Shown: in pieces, positions 7,803 to 25,755 of the stretch
Layout: each line of letters begins with the position of its first letter
How positions within the stretch are numbered: the first letter of the stretch is position 1
From: a virus
Strand: one strand, 5' to 3'
IMG/VR virus record: IMGVR_UViG_3300017717_000057
Span: 1-26,994 of that record
DNA: 26,994 nucleotides
Program-made: the position numbers and the translations under genes
Notes under the pieces: model-generated
What the model was told of the DNA's origin: nothing
What the model saw: only the letters and a program-made list of their open reading frames with translations
The model's database searches: none

Positions 7803-10066
7803 TAGAATGTTACCTCTGCTATCAATGAGTTGACTTGTAATGACAATGGAGCTGACTGACTAATTGTTACTTGTGGGTCTTTTGAAAATCCAAGTAATCT
7901 AAATTCTTTTTTGCCAGTAACAGCTGTTCTTGCCAAACTTAAATCATCAGTAACCTGACGAATAATAAGATTATTATTATTTACAGATACCGATAATGTA
8001 TTAGATAAATCTAATATAACTTTGTTCATACTTCTTGGTTCTCCAGTCATTGGACCTGATTGAGACATAGTATCTATTGGGTTTGTTGTAAGAGTAACAT
8101 CAAACTTAAATCCTATTTCCACTGATGAAAGACTATTGTCCACAGCCGATACATCGATGTTCCCACTACCCACAGTAAACTGACCAAGATAATGAGTGCC
8201 AGAGACCACATCGAGGACTGCACCGTTAGCAAAATCAGAGCTGACATCGAAGACTCCGCTAGAGCCAGAATATGTTTTAGCCATATCAGTATTAAAGCTA
8301 CTGTCAAACTCACAGAGAATATATTTATTTGCACCATCCCCTTTATCAAACTTAACTACAGCATACACTCTTGTATCAACTGTGCAAATAGAATGAAATG
8401 TTCCTTGACTTGTAAACTGCGTCCAGCCAAATCGTTGCTCACCTCTATTTGAATTGAATACACCAAGAGTTCCATTTGCATCTACAAGAAAGTAGTAGCT
8501 TTCAGCTCGGTCGATACCACCAGCAAGAGTGCTGGCTTGTATTGGGTTTTGTATTAGATGAGAAGCAAGGCTTGATATAGGTTGTCCAGTATATGCGTTC
8601 TGTCCGTCATCAAACAGCATCTCTCTTACTATTTCACCAGAACCCTGAATATAAACAGTTGCACCATCAAACACATAAGGTCTTACAAAAGATGCACCAA
8701 AAGGTGTTTGTCTTTTTATTGTAGCATTTGTAGGGGTTGTAGGCTTTTCAACAAAAGCTGGCACAATAAATTCATCAGTAGATGTAAACGCTTGCAAATC
8801 TCTATTCGATACAAGATGTTTGATTGTATTTACTTCTCCTATTGCCGCACGAATATCAATAGAATCATTGTCACTTGCGTCACCAATATCAAAGTTAAAA
8901 AACTGATTCGACTTACTCGCCCATAATCCATCAGGTTGAGATATAGTCCCAGCATACCACAATCTATTCTGATGAAAAGTAACAGCTCCAGGGAATCCTC
9001 TTAATACAGAGTAAGATTGCTCAGACCAGTTCGTAGCTGGTGCATGAGTTTCAAGGAAGGGAGTACCACCACCAGCTACAGAATCATTCGCATTACCACC
9101 AGCATTAAAAGTAAAAGTATTATCATCAATTACTTCAGCAACAGTTCTTGCTCCATTTAAATTACTTGCAGAAATGCCACCGACTGTATTTGCATTTGCT
9201 ATTGTAAACGCATCACTTGCGGAGAATCCGTGATTGACTAGTGTCACCTCTACTGTAGCCACGCCGTTGTCCGTCCGAAAAGAATCAACCTTAAGTTTCT
9301 TCTTAAGAGTAGCTAAAGCATTTCCTGTTGCTTGGGTTGCTGACTGTACAGATGTAATTGTTATCTCTTGGTCATGATACTTAATTGTAAGACCAACATG
9401 TTTTGAGTCTGCATAGTTACCACCAGATTGTGAACCAGTTAAATCCCAATACGCTTCACTTGTTGTAAGAGTTATGCCATTACCAGAACTAGCTGATGGG
9501 TCGAGAGTAACTCCCAAGTCTTGAAACTGAAAGTATGGTTGATAAATCTTTGCACCAGCAGACTGCGTATCAAATGTCTTTGTCTCCATCTGAAATGATG
9601 TAAGACCAGTACGCACAAGTTTACGCACCATAAATGTTTGATGAGCAATAAACATAACATCACCAGCTTGAGCATAAGTAACTTCATGCATATTAAGATT
9701 GGTTATAGGTATGGTAGCACTGCTTGAATCTGCTGTAAGTGTAGTTGCAAGCGTAACATTGTTACTGGTATCTATTGAAAACACTCTTATCTTTTGATGC
9801 TCCAGAGAAACAATATAGCGTTCATCATCAGAAAATATAAATGGAACCAGCCTATGTTGCTGGACTTTAGCTGTATCTATAGATGTATCAAACTCATATA
9901 TCTTGGAAAGACCAGCACGTTTAATAACTCCACCTTCTGCTCGAAGAAAGAAGTTCTCAATCTTTTGAGCTGAGTTATTGTATACCCTTGTGTCTGTTCT
10001 TGATATCAAGCTGGGACTTACTTCACCAAACTGAAAGTTAGTTAGAGCTACTTTTGCTTTTTGCAT
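7802..10066 (-). CDS. Tail tubular protein B (T7 gp12-like nozzle)
   Basis: A 754-aa protein with the characteristic gp12-family start: FQFGEVSPSLISRTDTRVY, then a KIENFFLRAEGGVIKRAG segment (about residues 12-55). The middle is rich in Thr/Ser/Asn beta-structure and includes the RLWYAGT and SKSNQFFNFD-type motifs (about residues 365-395) seen in this family. Gp12 forms the tail nozzle below the gp11 ring. Length matches T7 gp12 (about 794 aa). Coupled to gp11 by TAATG and to the gp14-like gene by TAATG. Confidence 0.9.
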   Translation of the reverse strand: MQKAKVALTNFQFGEVSPSLISRTDTRVYNNSAQKIENFFLRAEGGVIKRAGLSKIYEFDTSIDTAKVQQHRLVPFIFSDDERYIVSLEHQKIRVFSIDTSNNVTLATTLTADSSSATIPITNLNMHEVTYAQAGDVMFIAHQTFMVRKLVRTGLTSFQMETKTFDTQSAGAKIYQPYFQFQDLGVTLDPSASSGNGITLTTSEAYWDLTGSQSGGNYADSKHVGLTIKYHDQEITITSVQSATQATGNALATLKKKLKVDSFRTDNGVATVEVTLVNHGFSASDAFTIANANTVGGISASNLNGARTVAEVIDDNTFTFNAGGNANDSVAGGGTPFLETHAPATNWSEQSYSVLRGFPGAVTFHQNRLWYAGTISQPDGLWASKSNQFFNFDIGDASDNDSIDIRAAIGEVNTIKHLVSNRDLQAFTSTDEFIVPAFVEKPTTPTNATIKRQTPFGASFVRPYVFDGATVYIQGSGEIVREMLFDDGQNAYTGQPISSLASHLIQNPIQASTLAGGIDRAESYYFLVDANGTLGVFNSNRGEQRFGWTQFTSQGTFHSICTVDTRVYAVVKFDKGDGANKYILCEFDSSFNTDMAKTYSGSSGVFDVSSDFANGAVLDVVSGTHYLGQFTVGSGNIDVSAVDNSLSSVEIGFKFDVTLTTNPIDTMSQSGPMTGEPRSMNKVILDLSNTLSVSVNNNNLIIRQVTDDLSLARTAVTGKKEFRLLGFSKDPQVTISQSAPLSLQVNSLIAEVTF

Positions 10067-10653
10067 TAGCTTCTCCTAAAAGCACTAAATCTTGTTTGAG
10101 GTATAGTCCTTGTTGTTTGTTGTTGTGAGTCAATGTTTCTTGCTTTTAACATTGCTCGGTCTGCCATTGTAGACATCAACTGCATTAACTGAGCATCTCT
10201 AGCAATCGATGTAGCAAATGCAGAAGCTAAACCATACTCAAGAGCAATAGTAAAATAACTAGGAAAGTTCTCTTCTGTTGCTCGAAATGTAAAGTCAGCT
10301 ATTACAGTATCTTGTGTTGAAGTATCAGCATATACCATGTCACCATATATCTGATAATTTATCTGTCCATCATTCACAGTTACAGCATGAACTAGCAATG
10401 TATCTGATGGGAGTTGATATGCAAAATCATATCGACCAGTTGGAGCATCTGTCAATCTGTTAAGAACAGCTTGATTTGTTGCAAACCTCCAACGTGTATT
10501 CGATAAAGCACTACGGCAGATATCTTCATAGAGACTTCCAGCTACTAATGATTCTGTTGTACCATCAGTAAAAGAAGTTATCGGTTCAGCTCCTATCAAG
10601 ATAAGAGCACGACTCGAAATATCTATTGCACTATCTGCCGCAGTTGAAGTCAT
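10066..10653 (-). CDS. Tail tubular protein A (T7 gp11-like adaptor)
   Basis: A 195-aa protein of the gp11 family, matching the usual ~196 aa. Visible family features are an N-terminal ALILIGAEPITSFTDGT segment, a following R-ALSNTRWRFAT motif near residues 49-60, and YQLPSDTLLVHAV near residues 78-92. Gp11 forms the 12-mer adaptor joining the portal to the nozzle. It overlaps the stop of the small head gene and the start of the gp12-like gene, both as TAATG. Confidence 0.9.
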   Translation of the reverse strand: MTSTAADSAIDISSRALILIGAEPITSFTDGTTESLVAGSLYEDICRSALSNTRWRFATNQAVLNRLTDAPTGRYDFAYQLPSDTLLVHAVTVNDGQINYQIYGDMVYADTSTQDTVIADFTFRATEENFPSYFTIALEYGLASAFATSIARDAQLMQLMSTMADRAMLKARNIDSQQQTTRTIPQTRFSAFRRS

Positions 10654-10916
10654 TAGTCGCCGTCTGTTTCAACAATAGCTGTACCATTAGATACATCTAC
10701 TACAGTCCCAGTATTTGACAAAACAGTTACAAAGTTTGTCGTAGGAGTGTTTGTATCAGCAACAATTATAACATCTCTAATAGCAAGCATATTTGCGGCA
10801 CTATTAAAATACCCTTCAGTATTTATAGTTGCAATAGCATCTGTGGTTACATAACTCCACAGATTCATATTTGATGAACCAGCTAATCGAGATAATCCAC
10901 TAGCACTATAAGCCAT
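10653..10916 (-). CDS. Small conserved protein after capsid (head or decoration protein candidate)
   Basis: An 87-aa protein starting MAYSASGLSRLAGSSN, then a WSYVTTDAIATINTEGYF segment and a RDVIIVADTNTPT beta-strand. Proteins of this layout commonly lie between the major capsid and the tail tubular A gene in marine podoviruses and some siphoviruses. Their role is not established; head decoration or stabilisation is an inference from position. The gene follows the capsid gene by 14 nt carrying a GAGGTATTG-type ribosome site, and runs into the next gene by TAATG. Confidence 0.75.
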   Translation of the reverse strand: MAYSASGLSRLAGSSNMNLWSYVTTDAIATINTEGYFNSAANMLAIRDVIIVADTNTPTTNFVTVLSNTGTVVDVSNGTAIVETDGD

Positions 10917-10930
10917 TTCAATACCTCCTA

Positions 10931-11743
10931 TTAATTGTTATCTAAGACTTCATAGATACCATTGTCATCAATAACAACAGCACCCATTGACATCATAGAC
11001 GTTGCAAGATGTGACGCTCGTTCTGCAACATAGTTAAGTTCAGTTTGAACGTCAGAGTTTATACCAAGACCAACCGATGTTGTATGATATGCCATATTCT
11101 TTCCAGCTGTGATAGCCGCAGTTGAAAAAATTTGAAATCCAAGAAAAGACTTCATAGTCATACCACCAGCATATGGTAGATTCTGCTCACCCACAAAGTC
11201 AGATGATGCAAACTCAGTTATATTAAACAAGTCTGCAAAACCCTTTGGGTGCATTGCAAGGTATCTGCCACCATCCTCTGGGATGTTTGCAGTTCCAAAA
11301 GTTTCAAAGAGTGACAGTAAGTCAGCCTTCTCGATGGCACTACTTGCATCATGAATCTGAGTTGAGTTTGCACCAGCATCCATTGCTGTATACAAAATCT
11401 CATCAGTCTTACGACCAAGAGCCGCCGCCGCTGAAGTAGCAACTGCTTGTCTCTCATTGATATTTGTTTTTAGCTCATCCAACTTGTCGATGTATTCTGC
11501 GGCATAGAAGTCACTCATTGTCGCTTCAACAGTTGTATGGGCTAGTTCCATTGGAGTAACAAGACCATTTCTGGACTTAGTACTCGCACTACCAGTTCCA
11601 ATCTTCTGGAAACGTACTACGTTACCAGTCACATTGTTTGCCATTCGTACAGTATTTCTAAGTTTAGAACCCATACGCTGATAAGCAAGGTGAACTTCAG
11701 ATTCGAACTGCTTAATAAAGGCTGTGTCAATCGTATTAGCCAT
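10931..11743 (-). CDS. Major capsid protein (HK97-fold type)
   Basis: A 270-aa protein downstream of scaffold, with features of a phage major capsid. These are an N-terminal helix (IDTAFIKQFESEVHLAYQRM), a T-G-N-V-V-R-F-Q-K-I strand, a KLDELKTNINERQAVATSAA helix resembling the E-loop/spine region, and a central GGRYLAMHPKGFADL. It is shorter than T7 gp10A (about 345 aa), so it appears to belong to the short capsid family frequent in marine podoviruses. It is preceded by an 84-nt gap, the largest inside the late operon after the packaging genes, and by a GAGGTGCTAAT ribosome site 6 nt from ATG, which fits high expression. Confidence 0.85.
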   Translation of the reverse strand: MANTIDTAFIKQFESEVHLAYQRMGSKLRNTVRMANNVTGNVVRFQKIGTGSASTKSRNGLVTPMELAHTTVEATMSDFYAAEYIDKLDELKTNINERQAVATSAAAALGRKTDEILYTAMDAGANSTQIHDASSAIEKADLLSLFETFGTANIPEDGGRYLAMHPKGFADLFNITEFASSDFVGEQNLPYAGGMTMKSFLGFQIFSTAAITAGKNMAYHTTSVGLGINSDVQTELNYVAERASHLATSMMSMGAVVIDDNGIYEVLDNN

Positions 11744-11827
11744 ATTAGCACCTCATAAGTTAAGTTTCAGTTTACGCTTCCGATTGTCCTTTGCAATTTT
11801 CAACGAAGTTATCCATAAAGGGCTTCT
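11744..11827 (-). promoter_or_regulatory. 84-nt leader of the capsid gene (possible internal promoter)
   Basis: A short gap before the major capsid gene. On the minus strand a TTGCAA, 16 nt, TAAACT arrangement could be a weak sigma70-like promoter, and a GAGGTG ribosome site precedes the ATG. No terminator-like hairpin with a T-run is seen. Promoter assignment is weak and stands only on box resemblance and the need for high capsid output. Confidence 0.25.
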
Positions 11828-12442
11828 CTAATGCAGTACGGGTCTTTCACTTAATCTATTATTAGACTCAAATTTATTTAAATTGCAATAGAAAACTCGC
11901 ACAAACTCATGGTCATTGATAAAATATTGCTGATTTTCTACCTGAAACCCTATCCATCTTAGCCATCTGATAGTTTTTTCATGGTCAACTGGCACATAAT
12001 TTTCTACAATATCATACCCAATAGACAGAAAACTTAGAATAAGTTTGCTATGTTTGTAAAAAGATTTCCATATATTATCCACTTCATCTGTACCGAGAAA
12101 CCAAATCTTTCCAGTATGCATATACTTATCCATCGAAGTAATACCACACATAGCTATAGGCTTTCTCTTATGACAGATAGTAAAACCTCTTGAATCTTTT
12201 TCTTGGAAAGGTACATGGAGTGCAATCATTGGAGTCACACCAACCAATGCACACTCTCTGATATCAGGAAGACGCATATTATCGAGAATAATATCAACAT
12301 CAGATACAACACATGGTCGAAACTCAAGGTTGCCTCTTCTGATATATGTCAATACTTTATCGGTTTCTTTACTTTTTTTTTGGTCATCTGTTGTACATCT
12401 TCTTAAATCCTTCATCAACCATTTTGACAAAGGCTGGGTCAC
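11828..12442 (-). CDS. GNAT-fold virion-associated protein (T7 gp13 / DUF2833-like)
   Basis: An ORF of up to 204 aa between scaffold and capsid. The region from about residue 40 onward (LEFRPCVVSDVDIILDNMR, then an IAMCGITSMDKY strand and ENYVPVDHEKTIRWLRWIGF) has the layout of GNAT acetyltransferase-fold proteins. It resembles the T7 gp13/DUF2833 family carried by many podoviruses. The start is doubtful. The longest form begins with GTG at 12442 and overlaps scaffold by 59 nt with no Shine-Dalgarno; ATG at 12415 is also inside scaffold, also without one. An A9 run (12371-12379) lies just after the scaffold stop. Family call moderate; catalytic activity unknown. Confidence 0.65.
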   Translation of the reverse strand: MTQPLSKWLMKDLRRCTTDDQKKSKETDKVLTYIRRGNLEFRPCVVSDVDIILDNMRLPDIRECALVGVTPMIALHVPFQEKDSRGFTICHKRKPIAMCGITSMDKYMHTGKIWFLGTDEVDNIWKSFYKHSKLILSFLSIGYDIVENYVPVDHEKTIRWLRWIGFQVENQQYFINDHEFVRVFYCNLNKFESNNRLSERPVLH

Positions 12443-13094
12443 GTTGGTTTGGGCTAAAGTATCTGGGGTCTTGCATCATCTCCTTTAGCTTATCATCTGT
12501 AAGAACAGCTACTGGCTGACCAGTTCCTGATACTGGGTTCTCTTTCAGAGACTCCATCATAAATTCAACAACCTTTATACCTTCGGCTGTTGCACATAAG
12601 TCATCAATAGCTGGTCGTAACTCTTCTGGAAAGTTCATCTCAACAAAAGAACCAACTGCACTTACACGTTCTTCGGCATGGTCGCCTAGCTCTTCCATCT
12701 CATAATCAACATTGTAGCCATCATTGACAGCCTCATGAAACATCATAATGCCTTCTTCAAATTCTTTTTGACTAAATCCATTTTCATAGGAATGGTCAGC
12801 CCACCAGTTAAGGAGGTCATTATCTTTTGCCGCTTCGTCATCTATTACATCAGGTAAAACATAGTCACCAGCTTCTGCTGGTCTTTCTGAATATGCTTCT
12901 GCTTGTATCTCTTCCATGACAGCATTGCGTATTTCTTCTTCTTTCTGTCCAATCTTTGATTCAAGATTTGTATAGCTACTTGCTAAATCTTCAGGGCTAT
13001 TAAACTTTTCAGGAAGCCACTCAGGTCGAGCATCGGCATACTCTTGAGGAACTTCTATTGTTTGCTCTTGTGCTTCTGCTTGTTCTTCACTCAT
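12384..13094 (-). CDS. Capsid assembly scaffolding protein (T7 gp9-like)
   Basis: A 236-aa, very acidic protein between portal and capsid. The N-terminus is Glu/Gln-rich, followed by RPEWLPEKFNSPEDLASSY (about residues 23-41), the typical scaffold motif, then helix-rich acidic sequence. The C-terminus (DPAFVKMVDEGFKKMYNR) is a basic amphipathic helix, like the capsid-binding tail of scaffolding proteins. It overlaps the upstream 88-aa gene by 8 nt and ends in TGA just before a long A-run. Scaffold proteins guide procapsid assembly and then leave. Assignment is good from motif plus position. Confidence 0.85.
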   Translation of the reverse strand: MSEEQAEAQEQTIEVPQEYADARPEWLPEKFNSPEDLASSYTNLESKIGQKEEEIRNAVMEEIQAEAYSERPAEAGDYVLPDVIDDEAAKDNDLLNWWADHSYENGFSQKEFEEGIMMFHEAVNDGYNVDYEMEELGDHAEERVSAVGSFVEMNFPEELRPAIDDLCATAEGIKVVEFMMESLKENPVSGTGQPVAVLTDDKLKEMMQDPRYFSPNQRDPAFVKMVDEGFKKMYNR

Positions 13095-13353
13095 TTGATT
13101 TCACCTTATGTCCATGTTGTATACGTCTTTCAATTAAGCCAACAATATATCGCTGACCTTCTGCATGTCGAAGAGTATCATTAGTTACAGCCGAACCATG
13201 CACAGCTTCTATTGTTACACTTCTTAAATACTTAAGTATCTCTGCACCAGCTGGTGATGAAAACAGAGAAGCAAAAGTTAATGATATGTTTTGTTCATTA
13301 GATGTTGCTCTTGGAAACCCATCAAGACCAGAGATATTAGTTTGCTTGTTCAT
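13087..13353 (-). CDS. Small portal-linked protein (Bbp19-like)
   Basis: An 88-aa protein overlapping the end of the portal gene by 17 nt and the start of scaffold by 8 nt. It has the pattern F-x3-F-x2-PAGAEILKYLRSVT followed by a charged EGQRYIVGLIERRI helix. This is close to small Bbp19-type proteins found next to podovirus portal genes. Their molecular role is not established. Confidence that it is a real gene is high because of the nested overlaps; the family name is moderate. Confidence 0.7.
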   Translation of the reverse strand: MNKQTNISGLDGFPRATSNEQNISLTFASLFSSPAGAEILKYLRSVTIEAVHGSAVTNDTLRHAEGQRYIVGLIERRIQHGHKVKSNE

Positions 13354-14911
13354 CCATAGTTCCTTGTTGTGGCACTAAGCCTTGCTGTTGCATCATGCCT
13401 TGTTGTTGTTGAAGCTGTTGCGCCATAGCTACAATCTGTTTACGCTCCTCTAAATCTCTGAGAAGATAATCAGGGACTCCAAACTTCTTCGCTAAATACA
13501 CAGCAGTCTCTTCTGAGTTGATAAGGATATTAACTAACTCAGGCCCGAAACGCACCCCAACCATTTCTAAAAACCTATTGATTGATGTTATATCTTGATT
13601 TGATTGCGCTTGCGAAAGTGGTGAAACGGAACGGACTTTGATTTGTCTGCCGTTGATTGTTGGTATATTTATACGACCTTGCTTCTTCAATATGTAAACC
13701 ACACGCTGAAGAACTGGCTGTACCAACTCAGCTTGTAATCGACCAAACGCAGAACCAATACGTCTTGATAAATCTGCCATGCGTTCTGCTATCTCTGTTG
13801 CACTTGCTGGTGTTCTGTCAGGATTACCAAGCATATCATTATACAATGCTCTCTTAATATTAAGTCTCATATCAGAAAGAATAATGTTTGCTACATCAAA
13901 TGACCCAGCCGCTTTGACTGGCTGTAGTCCAGCAGAGTTTGGAGCTTTTGGAATAACTGTCCCAGGTACAAGATTAATTGTATCAGGATTTATTACACCA
14001 TCATCATCCATTTGATACACACCAGAGATTGCCATCTGTGCATTTTCTAGTATAAGTTCTATTGTCAGATTAGTAGTTTTAATCGCACTCAATGCGTTGA
14101 TAAGTGGACCTCGCCCATAGACCGCACCGGGGTCTTTACTCCAGCGAAAACATATAAATGGGTTACTGCCAGTACCTTTGTACTCTTCATACTTTAATAA
14201 ACACTTTGTGCTTATATCAAAAATAATACAGTAGTACGCATCCTCATTTGGCTTGGTGTAATTACGACAGATTATCTCAAGAACTTTTGTTCTTCCATCT
14301 GGAGTTGACATTATCTGATTAGCAAGCCGTGGATTTATTTTTGCTTTTGGATACAGTATTTTTATATCAGAATACCGAACATCCCTTTCCCTATATACAT
14401 GGTCAATCCTATCGTCAGGACCAACATCCAATACAACATGAGGTAAAGGCAGAGCTGTAAAATTAACAGGATTAATAGCATCGCCCTCCTCGACATGAAG
14501 TACACCAGTACCAAGTGCCAAGTCCATAAACGATTCATGCACCTCTTGACCAAAGTTTGAGTTCTGAATAACCTCAAAGACATATTCAGTAACCTCTTCG
14601 AGTTCGTTATTTACACCATCACGTTGTTCTTTAGGCACTTCGCTACCAGCAGTAAAGTCAGCCCAACGAGCAAAGTTAGGAACAAGACCAGCTTGTAATC
14701 TCGACGCAAACTCCTGTACTCCAACGACAGCAGTCTCATCAAAGATTTTATCATCTCTTCTATCGCCTATTGATTGTGTAGCGAATGTCTGACGCATAGG
14801 AAGTGCATACTCATAGCACTCATCAAATAAACTTTCCCATCGTTGTCTAACTGATTTTGCACTTTCATACTTTTTTAAGAATGAGTTTATTAGCTCTTCA
14901 TCAGATTTCAT
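13337..14911 (-). CDS. Portal protein (podovirus head-to-tail connector)
   Basis: A 524-aa head-tail connecting protein of the type described for T7-like and marine podoviruses (family PF12236-like). It begins with a helix (EELINSFLKKYESAKSVRQ) and a WESLFDECYEYALPMRQ segment near residues 25-41. Internal features include FASRLQAGLVPNFARWADF (about residues 72-90), a RWSKDPGAVYGRGP loop and GNPDRTPASATEIAERM in the stem/wing helices. The last 40 residues are a Gln/Met-rich tail (QQLQQQQGMMQQQG), probably disordered. The portal forms the 12-fold ring through which DNA is packaged and ejected. ATG overlaps the stop of the 97-aa gene (TAATG). Confidence 0.93.
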   Translation of the reverse strand: MKSDEELINSFLKKYESAKSVRQRWESLFDECYEYALPMRQTFATQSIGDRRDDKIFDETAVVGVQEFASRLQAGLVPNFARWADFTAGSEVPKEQRDGVNNELEEVTEYVFEVIQNSNFGQEVHESFMDLALGTGVLHVEEGDAINPVNFTALPLPHVVLDVGPDDRIDHVYRERDVRYSDIKILYPKAKINPRLANQIMSTPDGRTKVLEIICRNYTKPNEDAYYCIIFDISTKCLLKYEEYKGTGSNPFICFRWSKDPGAVYGRGPLINALSAIKTTNLTIELILENAQMAISGVYQMDDDGVINPDTINLVPGTVIPKAPNSAGLQPVKAAGSFDVANIILSDMRLNIKRALYNDMLGNPDRTPASATEIAERMADLSRRIGSAFGRLQAELVQPVLQRVVYILKKQGRINIPTINGRQIKVRSVSPLSQAQSNQDITSINRFLEMVGVRFGPELVNILINSEETAVYLAKKFGVPDYLLRDLEERKQIVAMAQQLQQQQGMMQQQGLVPQQGTMDEQAN

Positions 14912-15204
14912 TAGCCGTACATTCCCCCACCACTAAGTGGGCTTCTGAAACCAACGCCACCACGATTAGAAGTATACAAAGCTCTGCGACCTCTACTGCC
15001 TCTCATTACTGCTTGACCTTTTTTCTTCCCAGTCTCGTAAGTTAATGATGTTTTTATTGGTTGCTCTTGAGCAATAGTCTCTTCTTTCTCATCTTGCCTA
15101 CGCTCGATAGTTCTTTTTTTCTCTTCAGCTTCTTTTGCTTTCTGCTCTTCGTCTACAACTGGACTTGTTTTTTCTGGCTCTGAGCCACCACCACCGAAAC
15201 ACAT
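14911..15204 (-). CDS. Small Gly/Arg-rich protein between terminase and portal
   Basis: A 97-aa protein with three zones: an N-terminal MCFGGGGSEPEK, a highly charged middle coiled-coil-like region (residues ~20-55), and a C-terminal RGRRALYTSNRGGVGFRSP. The GRR-L-T-S-GG-GF tail recurs in proteins at this exact place in many marine phages. Function is unknown; a virion or neck-associated role is only a guess from position. A strong ribosome site (AAGGAG, 7 nt to ATG) precedes it and the stop overlaps the portal start. Confidence 0.75.
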   Translation of the reverse strand: MCFGGGGSEPEKTSPVVDEEQKAKEAEEKKRTIERRQDEKEETIAQEQPIKTSLTYETGKKKGQAVMRGSRGRRALYTSNRGGVGFRSPLSGGGMYG

Positions 15205-15215
15205 ATCATATCTCC

Positions 15216-16736
15216 TTATAATCTATTCCAGAAGGAACCACTTTTTCTAACATTAGCCGTTCTTTTAAAAATATCAAAGCCTTTTCTAGCGTTGAACGCT
15301 TTGACTGGTTTTTGACCAGCTATCAAACTACGTCCTTCACCAGCACCAAGCATCATATATTGCAACGCATCATGAATGTGAGAGTACATATTCTTATCAG
15401 GCTTATCATCATAACGCTCACCTGATACTTGCATACGTCTATAACAATAGCCACCTTGAAATCCTTTGAGTAATGTCTGGCAACGTCTATCAACTAAGAA
15501 CGCTGGCAATCCTTCAGACATCTTTGTTAACTGAGAAGCAACAGCTTCTAATCTTAAATCGACACTATTGCTAGGAGCTGGTACAGCTTTCAATCCAGCA
15601 CCTCTAAGGATTTGAAATGGAGTTGATTCATCTGTTTGCGCTCTGAAGTCACCAGCTGGGTCGCCATAAATATAAACATCTAGTCCACTAAATCGTGTAG
15701 CTATTTCTTGTCGGAGCAACTCAGCAAATCGCACAACACCCATATCAATAGCAACTATCTCAGCTTGCACCAGCCATCGACCTCGAACCTTTTGTCCAAA
15801 GACAGCAGAAGGAGTAAGACCAAAGTCAATGCCAACATACAATGGCACACCAATAGCAATAGGTATTTCTTCTTCAGCAAGATGTGTTTCAGTAACAAAG
15901 TCAGGATATACTGGCTTACCTTCCTGAATAAGACCCAATCTATTCATAACGTAGACATCTATCCAGTTCTTAGTCTTACCTCTAATGAGATTCGTATAGT
16001 ATGTGCCAAGAATATTTTTTTTATTTTCTGCGTCTTTATTCAGAGAATAAGAAGTTATTTCTTTTCTTTCATTAATATGTTCTTTCATAGCTGGAGGCTG
16101 TGCAAAGAACTTCCAGTTATCAGGCTTTACTAACATGGTAGCTTGTTCTCGAGGAATGTGGTCAGGTATGGGAACTTCTCCTGACATGATAGCCCACCAA
16201 TGGTCTTCCTCTGGTGCGTTAGTATCACAGATAACTCCAGACCAACTAGCACCACCTTCTCTCATACTTGGATATCGACCAACACGCATAGTACATGCAT
16301 CGATAATACTCTTCGGAATCTCTCTAGCTTCGTTCACCCATATACCAGTTAGTTCAAGAGAAAGAAGTTTCTTAACATCTTCTGGTCTGTCGAGAGCAAG
16401 AAAGATAACTTCAAGGTCTAAGTCATTAACAGTAATGTGATGAGTATAAGGAACTGACCACTTAAAGTTTCCCCAGTCTGATTCTGGAAACCAGTCTAAC
16501 CAAGTCTTAATAGTTGTAGTTCTTAACTGTGGATTTGTATTTCGTATGATAGCCCAGCGTGATTTACGAATCCCATCTTCATTTGGCTTCTGTTCTAATG
16601 CTCTTCGAAATACTTCAACACAGCATCCAACAGATTTACCAGAACCAACTGGGCCTCGGATACCACGAAAGAAACTTTCATCCTTCATAAAGTTTTTGAG
16701 AACATCACCATCAGGTTTGTACTTAAAGTCTGTCAC
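15216..16736 (-). CDS. terL: Terminase large subunit
   Basis: A 506-aa DNA-packaging ATPase/nuclease. The Walker A motif GPVGSGKS is at residues 28-35. A Walker-B-like strand GIWVNEARE with catalytic Glu lies near 131-139. A C-terminal RNase-H-like nuclease domain shows VGIDFGLTPSAVFGQ (about residue 300) and IYGDPAGDFR (about residue 350), whose Asp residues would bind metal. The protein powers DNA translocation through the portal and cuts the concatemer. The start codon appears to be GTG at 16736, 2 nt after the stop of the 78-aa gene. No ATG upstream is in frame without entering that gene, and the sequence just after GTG fits the terminase N-terminus. Confidence 0.95.
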   Translation of the reverse strand: MTDFKYKPDGDVLKNFMKDESFFRGIRGPVGSGKSVGCCVEVFRRALEQKPNEDGIRKSRWAIIRNTNPQLRTTTIKTWLDWFPESDWGNFKWSVPYTHHITVNDLDLEVIFLALDRPEDVKKLLSLELTGIWVNEAREIPKSIIDACTMRVGRYPSMREGGASWSGVICDTNAPEEDHWWAIMSGEVPIPDHIPREQATMLVKPDNWKFFAQPPAMKEHINERKEITSYSLNKDAENKKNILGTYYTNLIRGKTKNWIDVYVMNRLGLIQEGKPVYPDFVTETHLAEEEIPIAIGVPLYVGIDFGLTPSAVFGQKVRGRWLVQAEIVAIDMGVVRFAELLRQEIATRFSGLDVYIYGDPAGDFRAQTDESTPFQILRGAGLKAVPAPSNSVDLRLEAVASQLTKMSEGLPAFLVDRRCQTLLKGFQGGYCYRRMQVSGERYDDKPDKNMYSHIHDALQYMMLGAGEGRSLIAGQKPVKAFNARKGFDIFKRTANVRKSGSFWNRL

Positions 16737-16738
16737 AA

Positions 16739-16975
16739 TTAATCTTGTCTGCCTGACCTAATACGATACATGTAATCTGTATCGCCATACTGATTTTCAA
16801 ATCTATTCATATAATCATCAAAATCTTTTGGTTTCAAAACTCTTATTTCTTTTGAGCTTAATCCAAAATGTTCTTTTAGGATTCGCACATCACCCCTATC
16901 TAACTTTGCCATATCGATACCTTTGGCTTCTTTAGACATCTTTGGTTTCTTTTTATAAAGAGGTTCTTTTTTCAT
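16739..16975 (-). CDS. Small hypothetical protein directly before terL
   Basis: A 78-aa protein with a Lys-rich N-terminus (MKKEPLYKKKPKMSKEAKG), then KLDRGDVRILKEHFGLSSKEIRVLKPKDFDDYMNRFE, and a polar tail. The middle reads like a small helical, possibly HTH-like unit (VRILKEHFGLSSKEIRVL), but no known family is clear. TAATG overlap upstream and a 2-nt gap to terL. Its place before terL would fit a packaging accessory. The terminase small-subunit candidate is, however, the first gene of the operon. Confidence 0.65.
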   Translation of the reverse strand: MKKEPLYKKKPKMSKEAKGIDMAKLDRGDVRILKEHFGLSSKEIRVLKPKDFDDYMNRFENQYGDTDYMYRIRSGRQD

Positions 16976-17175
16976 TATACATCTCCTTGCTGTACGCCAG
17001 TTCTTACCATCGTCTCTGCGACTTCAGGTCCGATGTTCTCAATAATATTATCTAGCATTTTATTAGTGACGAAGGAAGCTCCATGTTTCTCATCAAAGTA
17101 TTGAAAGTGTATTTCCTTTACCACTCGACGAAGATATCTATGTTCTTCAGGCTTTAAGTTATTTATGAAGCTCAT
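16975..17175 (-). CDS. Small hypothetical protein
   Basis: A 66-aa helical protein. It contains LKPEEHRYLRRVVKEIHFQYF and a closing NIGPEVAETMVRTG segment; a GPEVAE-type ending recurs in short proteins placed before marine podovirus terminases. Coupled upstream by ATGA overlap and downstream by TAATG. Function unknown. Confidence 0.65.
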   Translation of the reverse strand: MSFINNLKPEEHRYLRRVVKEIHFQYFDEKHGASFVTNKMLDNIIENIGPEVAETMVRTGVQQGDV

Positions 17176-17414
17176 GCAAATTTCCTATAGAGTGCTGTCT
17201 TTTTTGCTATTTGCTTTGGTTGAGAAGAAAATTGTTTCCCTTTCTTCTTTGCTTTTCTTTTCTCTGCGGTGGTTCGTGCGTACTCTTCTGATGACAGAGC
17301 TTGTATTGCTTTCTTTGGTAGATACCTTTCCCCAGTCTCTGAAGACTTCTTTCCACTTTTCGTTTGCCAATCCTGTTCCCCCCAAGACTTTAGACTTCTT
17401 TGCGACTTCTTCAT
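17172..17414 (-). CDS. Small basic conserved phage protein (DUF5872-like)
   Basis: An 80-aa Lys/Arg-rich protein with the signature SLKSWGEQDWQTKSGKKSSE and TGERYLPKKAIQALSSEEYA, ending in KQIAKKTALYRKFA. This signature recurs widely in marine phages and giant viruses, usually as a DUF5872-type domain (name recalled, not searched). Function is unknown; nucleic-acid binding is suggested by charge. A second frame through the same bases is also open (17185-17430), but this frame carries the signature. TAATG overlap with the upstream gene fixes the start. Confidence 0.75.
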   Translation of the reverse strand: MKKSQRSLKSWGEQDWQTKSGKKSSETGERYLPKKAIQALSSEEYARTTAEKRKAKKKGKQFSSQPKQIAKKTALYRKFA

Positions 17415-17581
17415 TAGGTATAACCACCACCCTTTGATTTATAAGACTTAGCTAACAACTGTGCCTTTCGAGCAGACCACTTACCAGCCGCTGTACCTTG
17501 AACAGCTCTATTCTTTATAGAGTTAAATAAGGCTTTACGCATCTTTGGTTTGGTATAATTGCCAGCCGCGTTAACTGCCAT
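17414..17581 (-). CDS. Small conserved basic protein, WSARKAQ family (55 aa)
   Basis: A 55-aa ORF reading MAVNAAGNYTKPKMRKALF at the start and GKWSARKAQLLAKSYKSKGG near the end. The combination of YTKP-x-MRK near the start and W-SARKAQ-LAK-YK-GGGY at the end is a well-recurring small phage and viral protein type. It overlaps the preceding 38-aa ORF by 11 nt (start 17581) and its stop is shared with the next start (TAATG). Function unknown. Confidence 0.75.
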   Translation of the reverse strand: MAVNAAGNYTKPKMRKALFNSIKNRAVQGTAAGKWSARKAQLLAKSYKSKGGGYT

Positions 17582-17687
17582 TCATCTTCCCCTTGTCATA
17601 CAAAGGTTTCTTTTTCTTTTTAGCCTTTGTCTGCATAATCTTTTTCTTAAGGAAGTCAGGTAAAGTTTTTTGTTTGTCTGTTAACAT
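17571..17687 (-). CDS. Tiny Lys-rich protein (38 aa)
   Basis: A 38-aa ORF starting MLTDKQKTLPDFLKKKIMQT, followed by a Lys cluster and ending PLYDKGKMNGS. The LTxKQKxLPxxLKKxIM start is a pattern I recognise from very short proteins in marine phage late operons. It begins 1 nt after the stop of the 57-aa gene and overlaps the next ORF by 11 nt. Gene status is supported by its tight fit between neighbours; function unknown. Confidence 0.6.
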   Translation of the reverse strand: MLTDKQKTLPDFLKKKIMQTKAKKKKKPLYDKGKMNGS

Positions 17688-17688
17688 A

Positions 17689-17862
17689 TTACTTTCCTTT
17701 TATTAAAGACCAAAGAGGAGCTTTAATCATTGGCATATTCCTAATAATTTTTTTATCAGGTCGTGTGCTAAACTTCTTTTTACCTAAATAATCAAGAACG
17801 GCTTTATCCTTCTTAACATTAGGCATGTTCATAAACGGCATGTTTTTCATATATCCAGGCAT
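17689..17862 (-). CDS. Small Met/Lys-rich protein (57 aa)
   Basis: A 57-aa ORF whose start overlaps the stop of the 260-aa gene (TAATG). It begins MPGYMKNMPFMNMPNVKK, with a regular run of Met and Pro, and ends IRNMPMIKAPLWSLIKGK. No family recognised. The Met-rich start and basic character match the surrounding set of short genes. Confidence 0.6.
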   Translation of the reverse strand: MPGYMKNMPFMNMPNVKKDKAVLDYLGKKKFSTRPDKKIIRNMPMIKAPLWSLIKGK

Positions 17863-18644
17863 TATTTCTTTTTCCTTTTCATGTTTAAGAAAGCTCTCAA
17901 AGTATTCTTCTTTATCTTGCCACTCTTTTGTGCCTTGTCAATCTCATCTTGAGTAACGGCGGCATAAGACTTCCCTCTCCAACTAAAGTTCATACCCTTG
18001 CCTTCTTTCCTATCTTTCAATCCTTGTTTAAACGCTTCTTTGAAAGTTATGTCTTTCTTGCCAGAGGTTGTAGAAGGGGAGGCATCTGAACTAGGCTTAC
18101 TCGTTTGACCAGCTTTTTTCTGAGAATCAGACATAGTTGCTTTAGACCTTCGAACAGCTCCCCTTTTCTGAGCATCAGACATAGTAGAAGATGACTTAGG
18201 AACTTGTCCTCTTTTCTGTGAATCAGACATAGACTTGTCAGTTGTTAAATTCATCTTCTGGGAATCAGACATAGTACTCTTTGCTTTAGCTACTTGAGAT
18301 AATTTTTTCTCAGCATCTGACTTGGTAGACTTTCCTCTCTCAGTCATTCTCTTTGCTCTCTCAGCAGAACCTTGAAGAGTTCTTCGAGCTTGGTTGTCAA
18401 CTTCTCCCTCACCAGAATAACGTCTCTTGGCTTCTTTACCAATACCACCACTCTCTCTGCTGGTCTTAAGTCTGCTCTTTATGTCAGCTCTTTTCTCATC
18501 TCTTGATTTCTTTGGAGAACCATCAGGCTTATGGGTCTTCTTATACTTCTTGTCCCAAGCCTTTGCAGCTCTTCTCGATGCCAAATAATTTACATGATAG
18601 GTAATCTTTGGTCTTGGTTTTATCTTCTTATCTTCTTCAGCCAT
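17862..18644 (-). CDS. Lys/Ser-rich repeat protein with C-terminal FTWRGK-type domain
   Basis: A 260-aa, strongly basic protein. Residues ~1-115 are charged (KITYHVNYLASRRAAKAWDK). Residues ~100-180 hold about five copies of a 15-17-aa unit with core (S/A)TMSDSQK or KSDAEKK. The last ~60 residues contain ITFKEAFKQGLKDRKEGKG and NFSWRGKSYAAVTQDEIDKA. The final module, F-x2-AF-x-G-x4-G-x2-F-W-x-GK-Y, is common as the C-terminal end of marine phage proteins of unknown role. The repeat section is probably disordered. A strong ribosome site (AAAGGAG, 6 nt) precedes ATG. DNA-binding or capsid-internal use is inferred from charge only. Confidence 0.7.
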   Translation of the reverse strand: MAEEDKKIKPRPKITYHVNYLASRRAAKAWDKKYKKTHKPDGSPKKSRDEKRADIKSRLKTSRESGGIGKEAKRRYSGEGEVDNQARRTLQGSAERAKRMTERGKSTKSDAEKKLSQVAKAKSTMSDSQKMNLTTDKSMSDSQKRGQVPKSSSTMSDAQKRGAVRRSKATMSDSQKKAGQTSKPSSDASPSTTSGKKDITFKEAFKQGLKDRKEGKGMNFSWRGKSYAAVTQDEIDKAQKSGKIKKNTLRAFLNMKRKKK

Positions 18645-19257: not shown

Positions 19258-19626
19258 TCAAGACAAATCAATCTTTACATTAACATTACCAACATGACTA
19301 TGCATTACCTTATCAGGTGCTTTAAAGCCAGCTCTATCTAGCAAATCTTTACTAGCCTCAAGGCTAACATACTCAGACTTAGCATTACCTGATAGCTGTA
19401 CTATCTTACTCAATGCTTTCGTAGCGTTTATACTCATGCTATCTGCTATTGCTGTCATCATGTATTGTTGCACATGTGGTATCCTCAAAGCCTTGCTAGC
19501 AGTTACTCTGCCAGATTCACCCTTTGCGTATCCAGCTTCATCACTAGCCTGTTTGATACTACATCCTTTTGCTACTAACGTATCAACCAGCTTCTTCTGT
19601 TTCTCGGTTATCTTCACAAGTGTCAT
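19258..19626 (-). CDS. Terminase small subunit-like protein
   Basis: A 122-aa protein, first gene of the leftward operon. It has the usual build of small terminase subunits: an N-terminal HTH (TEKQKKLVDTLVAKGCSIKQ, then ASDEAGYAKGESGRV, about residues 7-43). A helical LRIPHVQQYMMTAIADSM region and an oligomerisation-type segment (SEYVSLEASKDLLDRAGFKA) follow. It would recognise packaging sites and hand DNA to the large subunit encoded 2.5 kb downstream. The start is not fixed: ATG at 19626 has GAGG only 1 nt away, while GTG at 19617 has better spacing. A transcription regulator is an alternative, but RAGFKAPDK-type endings are typical of small terminases. Confidence 0.75.
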   Translation of the reverse strand: MTLVKITEKQKKLVDTLVAKGCSIKQASDEAGYAKGESGRVTASKALRIPHVQQYMMTAIADSMSINATKALSKIVQLSGNAKSEYVSLEASKDLLDRAGFKAPDKVMHSHVGNVNVKIDLS

Positions 19627-19656
19627 GCCTCAATTCTTGCCGTTATTTCATACCCT

Positions 19657-19716
19657 TGTCAATATGTTAATTGTACCACAAGCAACATTCTTGCGAATGA
19701 TACATTCACAAGCAAC
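19657..19716 (-). promoter_or_regulatory. Putative late-operon promoter and operator
   Basis: On the minus strand an extended -10 box TGGTACAAT lies at 19678-19670, and a perfect TTGACA at 19662-19657. Around the first are two direct copies of CACAAGCAAC (19677-19686 and 19707-19716), 30 bp apart, and between them the dyad GAATG-ATA-CATTC (19695-19707). The spacing of about three helical turns and the dyad resemble a regulator-binding site upstream of the terminase small subunit gene. Which box is used is not determined; the -10 partner of TTGACA is poor (AAGAAT at 18 nt). Confidence 0.4.
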
Positions 19717-19782
19717 CAACTTAGTGTGGTCGCTGATGCCTGACTTGTCCCTACTGAGCTTCGCCCAGAGAGGCAAGACAGA

Positions 19783-20218
19783 CACGCTCTTGCGTCTCCA
19801 ATGTGCCAATGCTTGTCAGCTCTTCTTCGCAGAGCCGATAAGCAAATACCACAAAGTCGCCTATATGCTCCAAGCTCATTTCATTCGGCACTCGTTCCTC
19901 CACGACATATACTACACTTCGGCAAGCTATGCTTGCTCTGCGTTTCGTGTCGCTCCCCACTCGCACCTCATTCCAATCGGCGTCGCATCGCCACACGGAC
20001 ACACACACGAGTTCCTAGTATACAAGATTGCTCGCTTGACGCTCCGCTACGAGCAACTTTATGCAAGACAACCCTTTCGGCGTAGCTCAAGGGTCGCCAC
20101 AAGAACATTGCCTACCAGCCAGTCATTCGGACAAGCCGAATAACGATGTCTGCTAGTCTATGAGCTTGCGGTATAATCTTGCATTGGGCAAACATAGTCG
20201 TCACGCTCACGCGTCTCC
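19783..20218. repeat. Two copies of a 17-nt hairpin motif
   Basis: The sequence CACGCTC-NN-GCGTCTCC occurs at 19783-19799 (NN=TT) and 20202-20218 (NN=AC). Each contains a small hairpin ACGC-loop-GCGT (TCTT loop in the first, TCAC in the second). The two differing bases fall in the loop, and the stem and 3' flank are the same. Confidence 0.6.
20172..20177 (+). promoter_or_regulatory. TATAAT box, possible promoter for the 20410 gene
   Basis: A perfect TATAAT with no matching TTGACA 17 nt upstream (the bases there read TCTGCT). A TG lies 4-5 nt before it but not at the extended -10 spacing. If used, transcripts would start near 20184 and carry a leader of about 225 nt with the hairpins at 20203-20214, 20243-20304 and 20307-20380. 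Evidence is the box and the lack of a better candidate. Confidence 0.3.
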
Positions 20219-20242
20219 TTGTTTGATAACGGACAAATCGAA

Positions 20243-20304
20243 TAAAGATACAGAAAAATAGCTCGTCGTCCCTCCTCGACAAAGCCTATTTTTCTATATC
20301 TTTA
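20243..20304. repeat. Inverted repeat with 19-bp arms
   Basis: The arm at 20243-20261 matches the reverse complement of 20286-20304 at 18 of 19 positions; the single mismatch is C20251 against A20296. The arms are A/T-rich (core AGAAAAATAG) and the 24-nt loop is G/C-rich with a small GTCG/CGAC stem. It is the longest inverted repeat in the window. There is no T-run right after the second arm beyond its own TTT, so it is not a standard terminator. Confidence 0.8.
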
Positions 20305-20306
20305 CC

Positions 20307-20380
20307 AGCAGACAAGTCTGCTTTTCGAGTTCGCCCTGCTAATCCTAAAACTGTTATTAGGAACTCGTATGTATGAGTTC
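20307..20380 (+). promoter_or_regulatory. Candidate attenuator in the leader of the 20410 gene
   Basis: AGCAGAC-AA-GTCTGCT (20307-20322) is followed by TTT and could act as a weak terminator. Next, CGAGTTC (20326-20332) can pair with GAACTCG (20361-20367), enclosing CCTAA/TTAGG (20344-20348, 20357-20361). GAACTC (20361-20366) can instead pair with GAGTTC (20375-20380). The same six bases are claimed by two partners, so the two folds exclude each other. All this lies within 105 nt of the start codon at 20410. Confidence 0.45.
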
Positions 20381-20409
20381 TGTAACTTAACTTAAAAAAG
20401 GAGTCTATC

Positions 20410-21183
20410 ATGGACATCAAAGAGAAAATCAATTCAGTAATTAGTACTTATCGTATCACCGAAGACCATATGGAAACCACATGGTCATCTCTACAGAAGG
20501 CACTTGACAAGAAGTCAACTGCCAACGCATATGCTTCGTTGAATCCTCAACTCTGCATGCTTCGAGTCATCGAATACCTCATGGGTGATGGCAATGCTTG
20601 CCATCCCTTCGAAATGTATTTCGATATCGACGCTGGCGAGCATCGATACCAGAAGCAAGTCGGTACGACAGCTTCTGGAGAGCGTGTCATGGAGGACACA
20701 GATGAAACTGTCCCAACAGGACAGCTTGGAACGCTTCGCTTCTTGCAACCACTTCTTGAATCTTTCCACAGAAAGACAAAGACTGGAGAAGATAGCTCTG
20801 CTATCGCCTCCACTCTCAAGGTCGCTGGATATCAAGAGGCTAAAGCCATTCGAGATGCCATCCTCCACAACAAGGGCATGGGTTCTCGTGACCCAGAGTG
20901 CATAGCACATGACAGTAACAGGTCTGACATCAACACCGATACAGCTACTCGCATCTACGAGATTCAGTCAGTTGTCGAGGCTTGGTACAGAGCATCTCAA
21001 GGTGAGACTTTTGTTCCTTGGTCACAAAAGCAAGCAAAAGCTGAGACAGCTTCTGCTGAGCAAGGTCAAGCCTTGCTAGCACAAATCCGAGCTAACGCTA
21101 AGACCAAGCAAGTACTCAGCAACCAAGTTACTGAGTCCAAGCTCAAAGAGCAAGCTGACGAAGCCGATGGCATCGACAGCTAG
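20410..21183 (+). CDS. Unrecognised 257-aa protein, first gene of rightward operon
   Basis: The start ATG at 20410 has a clear ribosome site (AAAAGGAG, 7 nt). No known family is apparent. The first 150 residues are mixed alpha/beta with ASLNPQLCMLRVIEYLMGDG (about residues 42-61) and a TGQLGTLRFLQPLLESFHRK helix (about 102-121). The last 70 residues are Ala/Gln/Lys-rich and look like a long helix (EQGQALLAQIRANAKTKQ). There is no signal peptide or membrane segment. Codon use is visibly richer in G/C third positions than in the genes at 21.6-26.8 kb. Its isolation between two hairpin-rich gaps suggests separate control from the rest. It could be an early host-takeover or replication-linked protein, but nothing in the sequence decides this. 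Confidence 0.8.
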   Translation: MDIKEKINSVISTYRITEDHMETTWSSLQKALDKKSTANAYASLNPQLCMLRVIEYLMGDGNACHPFEMYFDIDAGEHRYQKQVGTTASGERVMEDTDETVPTGQLGTLRFLQPLLESFHRKTKTGEDSSAIASTLKVAGYQEAKAIRDAILHNKGMGSRDPECIAHDSNRSDINTDTATRIYEIQSVVEAWYRASQGETFVPWSQKQAKAETASAEQGQALLAQIRANAKTKQVLSNQVTESKLKEQADEADGIDS

Positions 21184-21194
21184 TACTTCCACAC

Positions 21195-21225
21195 GAGCAG
21201 TACCCACAGGGTACTGCTCTCTTTC
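21195..21225 (+). terminator. 11-bp hairpin after the 257-aa gene (terminator-like)
   Basis: GAGCAGTACCC (21195-21205), loop ACA, GGGTACTGCTC (21209-21219): 11 perfect pairs with a 3-nt loop, 12 nt after the stop codon. The following TCTTTC is only a partial U-tract, so termination may be incomplete. An RNA-stabilising 3' end is the alternative. Confidence 0.6.
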
Positions 21226-21237
21226 AGGAGATATCAA

Positions 21238-21318
21238 ATGATACGCTACGCGCTCATAAACCTATTCATGCTAACATGTACTTTGTACATGATAGCCGTG
21301 ATTCTACTAGCCATATAG
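21238..21318 (+). CDS. Candidate 26-aa membrane microprotein
   Basis: A short ORF with a strong ribosome site (AGGAG, 7 nt before ATG). It reads MIRYALINLF then MLTCTLYMIAVILLAI, a single hydrophobic span of about 20 residues with one Arg at position 3. This fits a tiny inner-membrane protein of the kind phages use for antiholin, superinfection or host-membrane functions, but no family is recognised. Two inverted repeats overlap it: CATGTAC-TTT-GTACATG (21275-21291) inside the ORF, and a 10-bp stem (21303-21312 with 21318-21327) spanning the stop codon. Coding is supported only by the ribosome site and hydrophobicity. Confidence 0.45.
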   Translation: MIRYALINLFMLTCTLYMIAVILLAI

Positions 21319-21605
21319 GCTAGTAGACACACGCAATCTACATGCTTCGCATGCAATGTAAACCATCGCTCTAGCTCACGCTATCACGATGCCGTCAAAG
21401 ACAAACAAGAGTAACGCAAGGCGCGAGTGTTGCGCCGTGTCGCCTCGATGTGAGGCAGATGAAAATATATTTCACAATGTCAAGCAAATCGATTCCGATA
21501 ACACAGTCTTTCCATCTCGCGTAAAGGTTTCCCTTCGGCGGCTTCGCCGACCTTGACGCTTGGAAAGGCCATGTTATTCGGGTGTTGTTTTTAAAGGAGA
21601 AAGCT

Positions 21606-21914
21606 ATGCTTAAGTTAAATGAAGTAACTAGATACTGGGGGGTTGACCACATGTACGACAGCGAGATGAACAGCGTACAATACCACAGATTATTCAACAA
21701 TGGTGACATACAGATATGGATGACGTACTGTAAAGACCCACAGAAAACCATGTATGAACTGGTCGATGTCGCATGTGGCGACAGCCGAGTTTACTCTCGA
21801 TTGTCTGACGCAATGGCGATGGGTGTTCTGTATTACATGGAGACTCAGCCCAGGTATTCTACCATGGGTCATCTGCAAACCAAAGAGATGCAGAATAGTA
21901 ATGTAACTAGTTGA
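21606..21914 (+). CDS. Hypothetical protein (102 aa)
   Basis: The start is placed at ATG 21606 because AAAGGAGAAAGCT directly precedes it; the in-frame upstream codon lies in the structured leader without a ribosome site. The protein (MLKLNEVTRYWGVDHMYDSE...) is mixed alpha/beta with WMTYCKDPQKTMYELVDVA in the middle and a polar end. No family recognised. It is the first of a run of short early genes; the next one shares the leader GGAGAAAGCTATG. Confidence 0.7.
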   Translation: MLKLNEVTRYWGVDHMYDSEMNSVQYHRLFNNGDIQIWMTYCKDPQKTMYELVDVACGDSRVYSRLSDAMAMGVLYYMETQPRYSTMGHLQTKEMQNSNVTS

Positions 21915-24924: not shown

Positions 24925-25755
24925 ATGGATAGACAAGGATTTATCGGTGGCACAGATGCCATCAGAATTATGAATGGAGAGTGGGCAGACCTCTACCAAG
25001 AGAAAGTAGGACTGGTTGAAAGCAAAGACTTGACTGATGTTTTTCCTGTTCAGCTCGGTATATTCACAGAAGAATTTAATCTAAACTGGTGGGTGCAAGC
25101 TCATTCACCTGGCTATACAATGGCTGGCACTCAACGTATTCTTCAACATGAGTTCAGATACGATGATGACTATGTACCCTTCAAAGGTACAGCAGACATG
25201 ATGTGTGTAGACAGCGCAAAGAAAAGCTACATTGTTGAAGCAAAACATACCAATGCTTTTACAAACATGAACGATATAATCGAAAGATACATGCCGCAGA
25301 TACAATTCTATATGCACTTACATAATATACATTGTGAAGAGTACGACTACAAACCAGATGGATGTTACTTATCTGTTATATTTGGCAACAGTAAATGGGA
25401 ATCAAGACATATTGCATACGACCCATTATACTCATACAAAATGCTTGGTAAAATTCAACAGTTTTGGAAACATGTAGTCAAGAAGAAACCTCCTAGTAAT
25501 CGTGATGCGGAGACCCCAGATATCTCAAGCATCGCGATTGATAGGAAGGTTAAGTTAGATATGAATGAGAGTAATGAGTTTATGTCTGATGCTCATGACT
25601 ATGTTGATACACTTGAGTCAGCAAGAAAGAATGAATCAGCTAAGAAAAGACTGATGAGTCACATCCCACCTGATGTATACCAGATGGACTGTGATGTATT
25701 ATCTGTAAACATAACCGACAAAAGAAGAACAATAAAAGTGAAGGAGAAAGCATGA
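24925..25755 (+). CDS. YqaJ / lambda-Exo-type exonuclease
   Basis: A 276-aa nuclease of the RecB-like PD-(D/E)xK superfamily. Features are GGTDA at residues 8-12, the conserved start of YqaJ proteins, then GIFTEEFN (about 45-52) with the conserved Glu. The catalytic core is FKGTADMM (Asp91) followed by YIVEAKHTN (Glu105, Lys107), with a PQIQFYMH motif at 124-131. Lambda-Exo-type enzymes degrade 5' ends of dsDNA to leave 3' single strands for an annealing protein. One is encoded two genes downstream, as in other phage recombination pairs. Ribosome site AAGGAG, 7 nt. The C-terminal ~100 residues are charged and may bind partners. Confidence 0.85.
   Translation: MDRQGFIGGTDAIRIMNGEWADLYQEKVGLVESKDLTDVFPVQLGIFTEEFNLNWWVQAHSPGYTMAGTQRILQHEFRYDDDYVPFKGTADMMCVDSAKKSYIVEAKHTNAFTNMNDIIERYMPQIQFYMHLHNIHCEEYDYKPDGCYLSVIFGNSKWESRHIAYDPLYSYKMLGKIQQFWKHVVKKKPPSNRDAETPDISSIAIDRKVKLDMNESNEFMSDAHDYVDTLESARKNESAKKRLMSHIPPDVYQMDCDVLSVNITDKRRTIKVKEKA

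Follow-up and report, generated by a model that had tools for sequence, protein, structure and literature searches.

The late and the early genes of the virus record studied here (26,994 bases, called the window because it is the whole stretch of DNA analysed) run away from each other from a long gap, positions 19627-20409, and the question raised by this locus is what the gap contains. An earlier note, made from the letters alone, had described it as a hairpin-dense non-coding region and had proposed for it structured small RNAs, a promoter/operator complex, a replication origin or a packaging site. The answer favoured here, with a probability of about 0.55, is that the region encodes a large structured non-coding RNA (ncRNA) on the strand of the small terminase gene (terS), from a family absent from Rfam, most likely a stand-alone or processed RNA or an RNP.

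Layout and coding status of the divergent junction

The late genes, located on the minus strand, code for tail, internal virion, major head and connector proteins, and the late run from terS extends over about 19.6 kb and fills the window down to position 1. The terS gene begins at 19626 and the early genes, on the plus strand, begin at 20410; the gap does separate the late and early operons, as had been described. The main landmarks are:

15216-16736, minus strand: large terminase (terL), in the late run
19258..19626, minus strand: terS (small terminase subunit), which opens the late run and has PF03592 and phrog_2538 matches
20410..21183, plus strand: e257, divergent early gene, 257 aa, without known family
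24925-25755, plus strand: RecE-like exonuclease, an early gene

Among relatives terL is 88-99% and terS 78-97% identical, whereas e257 and its counterparts in other clades share 21-41% identity; e257 is a fast-diverging early protein and the genes flanking it are well conserved. Its AlphaFold model has a pLDDT of 82, and the fold was dropped as a clue to function because no match with E below 0.001 was obtained among PDB and viral structures.

Three open reading frames overlap the gap (19436-20143 and 19801-20085 on the plus strand, 19751-20008 on the minus strand). The Pfam search of these frames gave no matches and, in the relatives, the frames of the same region carry frameshifts and/or internal stops; the protein-coding reading was therefore rejected. 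Neither a credible gene, which the earlier note had also failed to see, nor the clear protein conservation that would have contradicted it is present. The identity of a tRNA or tmRNA was ruled out, none being detected in the window, and so was that of a known Rfam family, since neither the window nor 13 related loci matched any Rfam 15 family at gathering score, and 19500-21700 had no GOLLD match even at E 5.

Folding, architecture and compensatory changes

When the region was folded against dinucleotide-shuffled controls, as had been suggested, both strands were far better than the controls and the minus strand more so. For 19627-20409 the MFE is -222.7 kcal/mol on the plus strand (z -5.8) and -289.5 kcal/mol on the minus strand (z -7.1; 40 shuffles), and a second set of 20 shuffles gave z values of -4.6 and -8.3, respectively. 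The refined element, 19992-20383, reaches -8.7 on the minus and -6.5 on the plus strand, with 0/100 shuffles equally good. The count of at least eight inverted repeats made at first sight is borne out: on the terS strand, 11 short-loop hairpins have stems of 6 bp or longer, and further inverted repeats comprise one 19-nt pair and one 21-nt long-range pair. Since the helix count of the region (10, against a shuffled mean of 5.0) is only about twice chance, the case rests on folding energy and covariation. Direct repeats or iterons were not found in the region.

The hairpins are dense as described, but they are not peculiar to the gap: hairpin density and higher G+C extend through e257 to about 21600. 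The stretch 19627-21600 is enriched in words like GCAAGC and CGAAGC, and this, together with the continuation of the hairpins through the e257 coding sequence and the next gap, would fit short inverted repeats that spread in a recombination-prone region without any specific function. Such an origin is highly improbable, considering that compensatory changes and invariant internal loops persist between clades and that the position is conserved.

Nor is the gap the only long one: 19627-20409 is non-coding and so is 21184-21581 (398 nt), between e257 and the next early gene. This second gap is gene-free and hairpin-dense, and the folding energy of either strand is very low. Its early-mRNA strand folds better in L033, L036 and L039, and a second structured RNA element is therefore possible there. 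An unusual degree of structure is also seen within the e257 coding sequence, at 20461-20760 (z to -8 on the minus and -5.5 on the plus strand); L032 and L033 share it, other clades far less so.

With the early protein and terS as queries, 87 loci were retrieved. In alignment A1, 20000-20409 is well conserved among seven sequences and 19690-19990 varies, with indels and an insertion of about 200 nt in L004 and L005, and the conserved element corresponds to the right half of the region, 20000-20375. The consensus fold of 19992-20383 and its relatives contains 126 pairs on the minus strand (-141.9 kcal/mol) and 113 on the plus strand (-107.3 kcal/mol). Over the 126 pairs, 98.7% of the cells of alignment A3 (7 contigs) are paired, and both sides have changed in 12 pairs and 25 cells (10.1 cells in shuffles, 0/500 as high), although these are not counts of independent events, since they come from a small set of related sequences (7 full-length and 9 core). 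Sliding the structure by 1-3 columns leaves 0 or 1 doubly changed pair. The covariation looked for in related viral contigs is thus present, and the opposite outcome, a fold no better than shuffled sequence and no conserved stems, did not occur. As is proper to a structured ncRNA, compensatory base changes are maintained across relatives and reading-frame conservation is absent. The element and its surroundings are organised as follows, in the order of the minus strand:

20000..20375, minus strand: structured RNA-like element, about 376 nt, 10 predicted helices and 126 pairs, P1 joining the ends
20359..20375, minus strand: P1 5' arm, CATACATACGAGTTCCT, pairing with 20000-20016 over 17 bp
20307..20322, minus strand: short hairpin AGCAGAC/GTCTGCT, present in all relatives
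20242..20305, minus strand: long hairpin of 21 bp, stem retained in relatives with 5 compensatory pairs
20191..20223, minus strand: hairpin with internal loop
20095..20173, minus strand: core domain (model R1, 83 columns), with a 7-bp closing helix and 10-bp and 8-bp helices
20069..20096, minus strand: hairpin ACCCTT..AAGGGT, compensated in L003
20024..20059, minus strand: hairpin AAGTTGCTCG..CGAGCAATCTT
20000..20016, minus strand: P1 3' arm, AGGAACTCGTGTGTGTG, pairing with 20359-20375
19663..19999, no strand assigned: outer part separating the element from the terS promoter, variable, with indels and clade-specific hairpins (e.g. 19690-19712)

P1 is the top long-range helix of the region, with a score of 40, whereas the best of 12 shuffles reached 34, and its inner end shows a compensatory C-G/U-A change. 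At the tip of the 20242-20305 hairpin some relatives carry a 40-nt insertion bearing its own hairpin, and in the L029 clade the place equivalent to 20191-20223 is occupied by GCAC(GTCTATCA)GTGC.

The core domain combines variation of its helices with almost invariant internal loops (CTCATAGACTA / TAGGCAATGTT). Its closing helix appears, according to the clade, as CCGCAAG/CTTGTGG, CTTGCCA/TGGCAAG or TTTGCCA/TGGCAAA, all 7 pairs being replaced, and the second core helix also varies in a compensatory way. Among 9 distinct core sequences (alignment A5), 95.2% of the cells are paired and both sides have changed in 9 pairs and 29 cells, against 9.4 cells when shuffled. With the R1 covariance model, cores score 94-107 bits and occur, in the loci searched, only upstream of terS in the loci of this clade; the extra score of R1 on the terS strand is partly due to its construction. 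A 65-nt match extended the reach to more distant phages. The core is present in 13 contigs besides the window and contig 3300017750_000706, which is identical to the window across the region and was left out of the count. No further true member was obtained by pattern scans of the viral collection, and the extra matches of a looser pattern in viral contigs were dismissed as chance, none having an R1 score above 16.3 bits; the core DNA has no match among annotated phages. The search for the core was also negative in the Pelagibacter phage Hodr (see below), in other terS relatives and in PBGS01000047, a contig labelled as a Euryarchaeota MAG. The latter, the one contig retrieved when the genome collection was queried with the terS protein, carries a terS relative (57%; L103 5001-5375) and is probably a mis-binned phage contig.

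Strand, promoters and mode of action

Read on the terS strand, lone mismatches in Watson-Crick helices are far more frequently G-T than A-C, with 13 vs 2 in class A (shuffles 6.2/4.8) and 25 vs 10 in class B (shuffles 9.2/6.0), counts that are inflated by the relatedness of the sequences. Of the 34 stem-supported hairpins with a GYCUAUCR loop seen across the loci, whose stems vary yet remain complementary, 33 lie on the terS strand. They are found mostly upstream of terS, with some in the second gap and a few weak ones elsewhere; distant relatives have some of them about 336 nt before terS, and the window itself has none. On the other hand, local folding in L011, L019 and L024 is equal or better on the opposite strand, and L036 and L039 have no significant local fold. 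The terS strand is, in consequence, likely rather than proven to be the RNA-encoding strand, and an RNA of the plus strand (an early leader) is less likely, since it folds less well, has fewer compensatory pairs and shows more A-C mismatches. The proposal of structured small RNAs stands as regards structured RNA, to which the compensatory changes and the G-U strand bias point, and needs amending as regards size, one large element fitting better than several small ones.

In the second gap, the hairpin GCGAGC(GTCTATCA)GCTCGC is found on the terS strand (L011 2643, L012 2287, L019 2724, L021 2589, L026 2776), sharing its loop with the region upstream of terS. This recurrent GTCTATCA loop could be a protein- or RNA-binding site.

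The G-T asymmetry bears on whether the hairpins act in DNA, as a replication origin, a site for primosome or primase loading, or a site recognised by the terminase. The location between divergent modules beside terS and the hairpins on both strands would suit such a site, and strand-specific ssDNA origins could also produce a wobble asymmetry. Nevertheless, an excess of G-T over A-C, a 375-nt multi-branched fold with a long-range closing stem, covariation and invariant internal loops argue against it, as does the lack of direct repeats or iterons. Besides, a sequence that is hypervariable among phages with nearly identical terS is unsuited to be a TerS recognition site. A DNA-level role is considered quite unlikely, and the origin and packaging site put forward earlier found no positive evidence here.

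The promoter component of the earlier proposal is supported by a sigma-70-like site adjoining terS and kept in relatives:

19633..19662, minus strand: terS promoter, TTGACA - 18 nt - AAGAAT, pattern match 10/12, about 6 nt before the terS start

Close relatives have TTGACA and a NANANT hexamer at the equivalent place, and terS mRNA is therefore probably almost leaderless. Upstream of the predicted RNA, L014-L016 contain TTCACA-17-TATAAT within the first early-gene codons, oriented to terS and with a predicted RNA start just before P1; related weaker sites are present in L011-L013, L020 and L022. In the window itself no convincing promoter for the RNA was seen, nor was a convincing terminator downstream of P1.

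In put-type antitermination, the nascent RNA makes the polymerase resist downstream terminators in cis. The main rival to a separate RNA, itself rather improbable, is a structured cis-acting leader of the late operon that modifies the polymerase as HK022 put does or controls entry into the late run. The element lies on the strand of the late run, directly upstream of terS, at a position conserved in all close relatives and with no clear terminator in between, and HK022 put sets the precedent of a nascent phage RNA with an effect on transcription (PMC9378689). However, the conserved promoter between the element and terS would give a nearly leaderless terS mRNA without the element, and the interior of the element is swapped freely between near-identical phages in which terS is 93-97% identical. 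Like put, the element would be a structured phage RNA upstream of a long operon and on the operon strand, but it is several times larger, precedes late instead of early genes and is followed by a separate promoter before the first gene.

A stand-alone or processed RNA is preferred on account of the paired ends of the element, the additional promoter lying between it and terS, and its body, which unlike terS is exchanged. The RNA would start close to the e257 start codon, fold into a domain of about 375 nt in which P1 pairs the ends around the conserved core of 83 nt, and work as RNA during infection, most likely alone, processed or within an RNP. That it is transcribed, where its ends lie and that it acts separately instead of as a leader are what we infer.

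The locus in relatives and known phage RNAs

All close terS relatives have the same arrangement: terS, 540-1150 gene-free nt and a divergent early gene of about 250 aa. In most clades the top long-range helix starts just past the ribosome site of the early gene, and the domain that it closes measures about 200-430 nt. The helix beats 12/12 shuffles in the window, L015, L019, L024, L027 (where it is located elsewhere, not near the early gene), L029, L030, L033, L034, L036 and L039, ties in L016, and is not above all 12 shuffles in L011, L012, L014, L020, L028 and L032. The P1-like arms of the window, L029, L034, L030, L024 and L036 have a CA-rich 5' side and a UG-rich 3' side, the outer arms of L030 and L024 having been paired by eye.

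The RNA region and e257 are exchanged partly independently (75% for e257 and 5% for the RNA between L011 and L015; 33% and 58% between L012 and L021), and for this reason a tight co-evolution of both was abandoned. The same exchange weakens the notion that a minus-strand RNA, beginning opposite the e257 start, controls e257 in cis by pairing with its leader. It is true that the leader and ribosome site of e257 lie opposite the start of the proposed RNA and that 20235-20326 on the minus strand gives a weak match, below threshold, to the antisense RNA family ctRNA_pND324 (25 bits for a cut-off of 45, E 0.8). A covarying fold of 375 nt would be unnecessary for antisense control alone, and we regard this control as very unlikely.

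Returning to the separate structured RNA, the odds are roughly even that it represents a new family of large phage ncRNAs, found so far only in one marine podovirus clade, in which an 83-nt core sits within a hypervariable, exchangeable body, always between terS and the first early gene and with recurrent modules (P1 and the GYCUAUCR-loop hairpins); its product may be a particle of RNA or RNP, or may regulate the early-late switch in a phage-specific manner. To our knowledge, few large structured phage RNAs are known, and this one has no Rfam counterpart; no report of an RNA in these phages was found in the open-access literature.

GOLLD and ROOL form homo-oligomeric RNA-only assemblies, as seen by cryo-EM. 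The element resembles them in kind, as they are large, elaborately folded ncRNAs of phages and prophages (Rfam; PMC12286853), and GOLLD likewise has one conserved and one variable part (PMC12286853). By Rfam it belongs to neither, their models having no match in the window or the 13 related loci; it is also shorter (about 375 nt in the window) and is flanked by terS and an early gene, in a window that contains no tRNA. The prohead (packaging) RNA of phi29 is another structured phage RNA, comparable in that the element adjoins a terminase gene, but the window phage has a pair of large and small terminases, unlike phi29, and no match to that Rfam family was obtained.

Pelagibacter (SAR11) is an abundant ocean bacterium, and these phages are related to an isolate grown on it. 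A large RNA located where early and late genes meet, with a body swapped between near-identical phages and a retained core, would allow RNA-based control or RNA machinery to be tested in a common marine virus, and the core model can be used to search marine metatranscriptomes for the family.

The nearest isolate found is Pelagibacter phage EXVC031P Hodr (OQ414635), the sole annotated phage with a related terS (57.6% identical). Its early and late genes also diverge from a gap that holds a long inverted repeat, although this gap measures only 337 nt and lacks the core. This repeat, AATAATAACAAC...GTTGTTATTATC, was located by eye before record position 12374 (L100 being Hodr 8000-18000) and is possibly an analogous but unrelated element.

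Finally, a downstream module, ACAGCGTTCT...AGGTTGTG, consists of two hairpins within a stem (L014 2800-2870) and has equivalents in L011, L020 and L027. By eye, its TCTATC loop in L014 could pair with GATAGG just past the stem, forming a pseudoknot.
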